Shown here piece by piece: positions 6,383-7,023 of a stretch of DNA of 43,161 bases. The first letter of the stretch is position 1. Each line of letters opens with the position of its first letter. The notes below the pieces were generated by a model, which was given only the letters and a program-made list of their open reading frames with translations, was not told the DNA's origin and searched no databases. This DNA comes from a virus. The stretch covers positions 1 through 43,161 of IMG/VR virus record IMGVR_UViG_3300036985_003688; one strand, given 5' to 3'. Position numbers and translations under genes: made by a program.

Positions 6383-6877
6383 TTGACATACGGATTGGAC
6401 GATGAGACTGAGAAGCGGATAGCGGCTGACCACAGGGAGATCGAAGATGCCCAGCGCAAGACGTTTGAGGCGAATGACACGATCAAGGGCCTGCTGACTT
6501 CTACAGAAGAGAAGTGCATATCTCTCAAAATCGGCAGGATCGATGTCAAGATCCTGGCAGCGCCCCCTCGCAAACTTCGCAGAGAACTGATCATGTATCA
6601 GCGACTCTGTCAGAAGATGCAGCCGGCTGATGAGGATAGTATCACTCCGGAAGAGCTGGAGAGCCTGGACGCGAAGCTGGATGAAGTCGAAGGGCAACTT
6701 TACCCGATGTTGACGCAGATGGTGCTGTCACCTCCGGAGCTGAAAGATCCGCTGGTCTGGCAATATCTTGACGAGAAAGAAGGGTTAGCAATGACGGCGT
6801 TCGGGCTGATAATGATAGCCATCAACAAGCAGGGGGAAGATATAAAAAATTCGCAGAAACCGACCAAGGGCAAATAA
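6383..6877 (+). CDS. Tail assembly chaperone, zero-frame product (gpG-like)
   Basis: This 164-residue, acidic, helical protein lies between tube and tape measure, the standard place for the tail assembly chaperone. The start is uncertain. A TTG at 6368 overlaps the upstream stop (TTGA), while a TTG at 6383 has a GAGGGGAT ribosome site 5-9 nt before it; 6383 is preferred. Near its 3' end the codons ATA AAA AAT hold a canonical slippery heptamer, allowing a second, longer product. The shorter product should be the major one. The stop codon is at 6875-6877. Confidence 0.75.
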   Translation: MTYGLDDETEKRIAADHREIEDAQRKTFEANDTIKGLLTSTEEKCISLKIGRIDVKILAAPPRKLRRELIMYQRLCQKMQPADEDSITPEELESLDAKLDEVEGQLYPMLTQMVLSPPELKDPLVWQYLDEKEGLAMTAFGLIMIAINKQGEDIKNSQKPTKGK

Positions 6878-7023
6878 TCTTGGAAATCTGTGAAGTAGTC
6901 AGGAAATCGCCGTCAGAGTTGGAAGACATTGAGCCAGTAGACGAGTTGTTCCTGACACATGCCATTATTGAGAAGAAGAAACGGGACATGCAGAAATGGG
7001 CGAGAATATTTGGAGGGAAATGA
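6383..7023 (+). CDS. Tail assembly chaperone, -1 frameshift product (gpGT-like)
   Basis: Ribosomes slipping back one base at A AAA AAT (6844-6850) would read AAA TTC GCA GAA and stay open to the TGA at 7021-7023. This adds about 57 residues to give roughly 213. The added part includes the segment from 6881 (LEICEVVRKSPSELEDIEP) and ends KWARIFGGK. It has no credible ATG of its own and starts in the -1 frame, exactly as in the conserved G/GT arrangement of tailed phages. In that system the long form recruits tape measure protein and the short form coats it. The slippery site and open frame are visible; slippage itself is inferred. Confidence 0.72.
6844..6850 (+). promoter_or_regulatory. Programmed -1 ribosomal frameshift site (A AAA AAT)
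   Basis: The heptamer AAAAAAT is phased as X XXY YYZ in the zero frame (codons ATA AAA AAT) 25 nt before the zero-frame stop. After slippage the reading frame is open for another 57 codons. A downstream structure is not obvious by eye. Confidence 0.72.

Follow-up and report, generated by a model that had tools for sequence, protein, structure and literature searches.

The end of one gene of this virus is overlapped by a second reading frame, which runs up to the tape measure gene and begins with no obvious start, and the question is how this second frame is translated. The initial annotation of the DNA (the window below, that is, the whole stretch analysed, 43,161 nt) proposed a −1 programmed frameshift in tail chaperone genes of an apparently archaeal virus. 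The region 6383–7023 very probably encodes a tail assembly chaperone of the G/GT type in a tailed virus of archaea, with a −1 slip in the lineage of the window and a +1 slip in most of its family. The features of the locus are as follows.

5895..6371, plus strand: gene preceding G, located where the major tail protein gene is expected; conserved 5′ of G in L003, L006, L007, and L009
6383..6877, plus strand: zero-frame “G” protein, about 164 aa; open frame with profile-found homologues in 14 other family contigs
6831..6837, plus strand: AGGGGGA, candidate internal Shine–Dalgarno-like stimulator read from the sequence, 7 nt 5′ of the heptamer
6844..6850, plus strand: slippery heptamer A AAA AAT, predicted −1 site, in phase and within the longest nucleotide stretch conserved between the window and L003
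6850..7023, plus strand: −1-frame “T” extension, 57 codons (FAETDQGQ...FGGK), then TGA; protein conserved in the family
6880..6882, plus strand: TTG, the sole plausible separate start for T (rival reading), with a 3-nt Shine–Dalgarno match; not conserved in the family
7027..8334, plus strand: tail tape measure gene (PHROG tape measure families, best E 8e-5)

The zero-frame codons around the slip read GAT ATA AAA AAT TCG, so that A6844–T6850 is in phase, and 24 nt separate the heptamer from the zero-frame stop TAA (6875–6877). The open −1 frame spans 6772–7020 and is closed by TGA 7021–7023, the 57 codons being counted from TTC at 6850; it overlaps G by 34 codons, and the ATG of the tape measure gene follows at 7027. 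The phase of the heptamer, its closeness to the zero-frame stop, and the open −1 frame just before the tape measure gene were all described correctly at the outset, and the coordinates and counts hold in the sequence and its translations. For G itself, TTG at 6383 is the best candidate and the likeliest start.

It is predicted that most ribosomes terminate at 6875 and so produce G, while a minority would slip back by one base on A AAA AAT, with the Lys and Asn tRNAs re-pairing on AAA AAA. These ribosomes would then read the −1 frame to 7020, yielding a G–T fusion with the junction ...D-I-K-N-F-A-E-T... (predicted junction peptide DIKNFAETDQGQ). Archaeal ribosomes are reported to shift to −1 on the identical A-AAA-AAT in fucA1 of Saccharolobus solfataricus, at about 10% in vitro (PMC8211752). 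This experimentally shown case shares the heptamer and the archaeal ribosome with the window, but fucA1 is a cellular enzyme gene for which no conserved two-product role is known. The AGGGGGA upstream of the heptamer might serve as a stimulator, which is only a suggestion. On the 3′ side, where the initial annotation had proposed folding the RNA, the fold is unremarkable: no strong structure was found downstream of the slip in the window (z −0.6) or in its closest relative L003 (z −1.4).

Taken alone, the heptamer in the 34-codon overlap is only mildly unusual and is no proof, because in-phase XXXYYYZ heptamers occur at 24 of the 8,525 codons of the virus’s genes, and AAAAAAN at 6. It becomes convincing because of a 16-nt stretch shared with L003 and because the protein in the −1 frame is kept throughout the family. 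The window and L003 are separate contigs with 65% identical MCPs, the same A6 site, and the same frame relation. Over the gene pair (58% identity), their longest identical stretch is these 16 nt (GATATAAAAAATTCGC, 6839–6854), which span the heptamer; an identical run that long would arise anywhere in the gene pair with a probability of 0.04 in a simple simulation. Between the slip and the zero-frame stop, the two sequences differ 2, 1, and 6 times at the first, second, and third positions of the T-frame codons, and their zero-frame tails diverge (NSQKPTKGK in the window, NSRRRQRGKSS in L003). In these nine codons, the pattern is the one expected if the DNA is read in the −1 frame. A scan for further members of the window’s own clade gave none besides L003/L004.

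More distant relatives were gathered by MCP and portal scans of IMG/VR and from fetched regions. The end of G is held by 14 further distinct contigs, and T by all of them except L105, which gives 15 family members with the window; the G and T profiles detect both genes in every contig holding the region. Direct searches with G and a phage-database search with the MCP gave no matches, nor did the G profile match distant portal-bearing contigs or known archaeal viruses. A Paenibacillus contig (L011/L022) hit by a degenerate MCP pattern was taken as chance, because a search of it with the window’s tape measure protein gave no relative. The T domain is conserved. In most members it starts with F[A/S]x[S/T]xxGQ, and in nearly all members this junction lies upstream of any possible T start.

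The position of the junction bears on the possibility that T is a separate small protein, produced without any fusion by translational coupling or re-initiation at TTG 6880 (ATG in L003). A mechanically called ORF (6880–7023, 47 aa) does begin at this TTG, 2 nt past the G stop, and in L003 the ATG overlaps the stop (TAATG), so that coupled initiation is conceivable in this small clade. However, the T residues FAETxxGQ are encoded 5′ of the TTG/ATG and are conserved while the zero-frame tail diverges, and the Shine–Dalgarno match at TTG 6880 is 3 nt long, against 5–7 nt at many genes of the virus. Moreover, separate initiation is impossible in L109, whose T frame has no ATG, GTG, or TTG, and implausible in L005, L103, and L125, where such a codon appears at position 30 or later only. 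Since the junction precedes the starts and one relative has none, programmed frameshifting is far better supported, and separate synthesis of T is highly improbable; in the window, a separate start is possible only as an unconserved extra. The remark that the second frame lacks a start therefore needs amending as to TTG 6880–6882, which exists with its weak 3-nt Shine–Dalgarno match, and stands in that the frame has no conserved start of its own across the family.

The predicted frameshifting takes two directions in the family. In 12 of the 15 members, T is in the +1 frame relative to G, and the junction codon is TTT followed by C (UUU_C, mostly UUU_CGC); for L105, whose contig ends just past the site and does not cover T, the assignment comes from the site alone. 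The +1 sites are the following.

AAC TTT CGC: L005
GAC TTT CGC: L006, L105, L106, L107
AAA TTT CGC: L007
AAA TTT CAG: L009
TCT TTT CGC: L103
TCC TTT CAG: L104
TCC TTT CGC: L108, L127
GCC TTT CGC: L125

At these sites, the Phe tRNA in the P site would shift from UUU to UUC and so produce the same fusion; such a slip has been argued for influenza A PA-X, where the +1 shift occurs on UCC_UUU_CGU (PMC3498833). L108 and L127 have UCC_UUU_CGC, and the P-site logic would be the same; the likeness is one of sites only, as PA-X is an unrelated gene with a eukaryotic host. Reading the +1 sites as −2 was rejected, since a step of two bases back would leave the tRNAs poorly paired at these codons, while the shift from UUU to UUC keeps good pairing.

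The T frame is −1 only in the window (A AAA AAT), L003 (A AAA AAT), and L109 (A AAA AAA). As to the conservation on which the initial annotation relied, the T-frame protein is indeed kept across the family, but A AAA AAT is carried by two contigs only, the window and L003. It had also named loss of the heptamer with both frames kept as a case against its reading. Exactly this is seen in 12 relatives, yet frameshifting is not refuted, because each of them has UUU_C, the opposite frame relation, and a homologous junction peptide.

The predicted fusion can be aligned through the junction in either direction (IKNFAET in the window, IVKFARS in L007, IKSFAES in L127, IKTFARS in L109). In L109, the T frame past the slip (NEEAIKTFARSPKGQ) aligns with the zero-frame-plus-T residues of the +1 members (L007: TEDKIVKFARSKAGQ), and the residues just before FARS are encoded by the T frame after the slip in L109 and by the G frame in the +1 members. 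This suggests a path in which the old +1 site of L109 may have lost one base (TTT C GCC to TTT GCC) and a new −1 site may have arisen upstream.

Maximum-likelihood trees of the MCP and of the portal place the window and L003 among +1 members. L109 likewise adjoins +1 members, L108/L125 in the MCP tree and L108 in the portal tree. The AU test rejects a single clade uniting the three −1 members (p 0.007 for the MCP and 0.001 for the portal), and therefore the direction has changed at least twice. The exact place of L109 is less sure than this rejection because of its long branch in the MCP tree. Thus, the frameshift of the window and its relatives appears to have exchanged direction within one orthologous family, and no earlier report of such a reversal was found in the searchable literature. 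A rule stated from 1,106 surveyed prokaryotic genomes (77 archaeal) is that orthologues share the direction of a programmed ribosomal frameshift, and orthologues differing in direction were read as pointing to transcriptional realignment (PMC3711429). The family of the window looks like an exception to this rule.

The survey’s criterion, together with the A runs present at both types of −1 site (A6 in the window, A8 in L109), would point to slippage of RNA polymerase rather than of the ribosome. But the +1 relatives have only TTT_C, with no long homopolymer on which transcriptional slippage could readily act, and for this reason slippage of the ribosome best accounts for the function that the members share. 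A6 is a short run for RNA polymerase slippage, and transcriptional slippage has no need of a heptamer in exact phase. It is considered slightly less probable even than separate synthesis of T. Given the conservation, it is extremely unlikely that the frame is open by chance or that an assembly indel has split an ordinary fused gene. Each member is known from a single contig, and the A8 run of L109 (slip site at about 5414–5425) may be miscounted by one base, A9 fusing G and T in frame there; but two independent contigs, the window and L003, have the same A6 site and frame relation, and in no family contig are the frames fused.

Putative frameshift sites are present in the tail chaperone genes of other archaeal viruses as well. 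The initial annotation called archaeal examples little documented, which is fair, though G/GT frameshifting had already been predicted: −1 for HVTV-1 and HCTV-1/2/5 and +1 for HSTV-2 (PMC5009743), and TTT-CGC was pointed out in HF1-group viruses (PMC7230728). The chaperone genes of HSTV-2 (AAG TCC TTT CGC) and HF2 (AAG TTT CGC) have UUU_CGC at their end, and so do those of HFTV1 (GGG TTT CGC) and of MFTV1 from the methanogen Methanocaldococcus fervens (AAA TCC TTT CGC), no frameshift being annotated in either of the latter two. The HF1-group viruses and HSTV-2 (Hafunaviridae) share UUU_CGC with the window’s +1 relatives, and their junction, K(S)FA[ED][ST], is similar. However, they are myoviruses, their T domains cannot be aligned past the junction, and the window itself is −1. 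The F-A at the junction was not accepted as proof of homology with haloviruses, because these two residues follow from UUU_CGC itself.

In MFTV1 (NC_074641; L129 11406–11916), the unannotated +1 G–T extension at AAA TCC TTT CGC lies between gp17 and gp18. Against the family T profile, its T frame ranks first among 7,840 six-frame fragments (E 0.018; E 0.048 without the residues adjoining the site). In HRTV-29 (NC_062762; L135 24392–25071), the site is GGG TTT CGC and the +1 product resembles that of HFTV1; GenBank annotates a −1 shift, which, judged from the sequence, looks wrong. HCTV-2 (A AAA AAC) and HATV-3 (G GGA AAC) look to be −1.

As +1 at UUU_CGC occurs in several archaeal virus families, it is probably ancestral in the family of the window. 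It is likely, in our opinion, that selection keeps the G–T fusion and not the recoding signal, that UUU_CGC is an ancestral +1 signal, widespread among tailed viruses of archaea, and that an ancestral +1 UUU_C gave way to a −1 A run at least twice. In the lineage of the window, and separately in L109, the replacement would have proceeded by net one-base changes around the junction, with the fusion and its junction peptide preserved. The family offers a natural series of +1 and −1 sites serving one protein, with ready sequences to probe frameshifting by archaeal ribosomes, of which one case only has been shown experimentally so far. It also suggests that annotation pipelines should scan the sequence before archaeal tape measure genes for UUU_C as well as for X XXY YYZ.

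The identification of G and T as chaperones is made from position and gene anatomy. A fit to the G/GT system was claimed at the start and is supported by the location before the tape measure gene, the phase, the overlap, and the conservation. The gene at 5895..6371 was not identified by profile and is assigned as a presumed major tail protein gene by position only. The G/GT system of phage lambda (reviewed in PMC5009743) has the same order of an upstream structural gene, G/T, and the tape measure gene, overlapping frames, a slip site close to the G stop, and a −1 shift. By analogy with lambda, G would coat the tape measure protein, and T would recruit the tail tube protein. There is no recognisable sequence similarity to lambda, however; the slippery heptamer is G GGA AAG in lambda and A AAA AAT in the window, whose virus is archaeal, and the family orthologues use +1.

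Neither G nor T matched a Pfam or PHROG profile as a chaperone. Folded separately, each reached a pLDDT of 81. A PDB Foldseek search with G gave no significant match; the best VIA hits, all weak, were 3fgx (Z 5.4), 5ir0 (Z 5.2), and 3klu (Z 4.7). The last is YqbN, a Bacillus subtilis protein that is encoded by a prophage and belongs to the XkdN-like tail chaperone family. Weak BFVD matches (E 0.19–0.66) include some proteins named tail assembly chaperone.

The assignment to an apparently archaeal virus is supported by the replication gene of the window.

22148..24106, minus strand: MCM replicative helicase (PF00493, E 8e-68)

An archaeal host is supported because the matches of this helicase in the phage collection are to archaeal viruses only (16 of 16). 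A provirus was not found in scans of sequenced genomes. The MCP gene is at the left end of the window (1–43161) and the terminase, portal, and protease-like genes are at its right end, which suggests a circularly permuted genome cut between the protease and the MCP. PKD domains are present in two tail-region proteins (8772–13153). In the portal protein, the C-terminal residues 798–914, encoded at 34951–35301, give a weak match to the ADP-ribosyltransferase exoenzyme family PF03496 (E 0.005, below the cut-off). Finally, a diversity-generating retroelement occupies 36588–40804. It comprises a reverse transcriptase (39800–40804, PF00078), a template repeat (39561–39664), and a variable repeat (39387–39490) at the 3′ end of a tail protein gene (36588–39503), and all 19 of the 19 mismatches between the repeats fall at template adenines.
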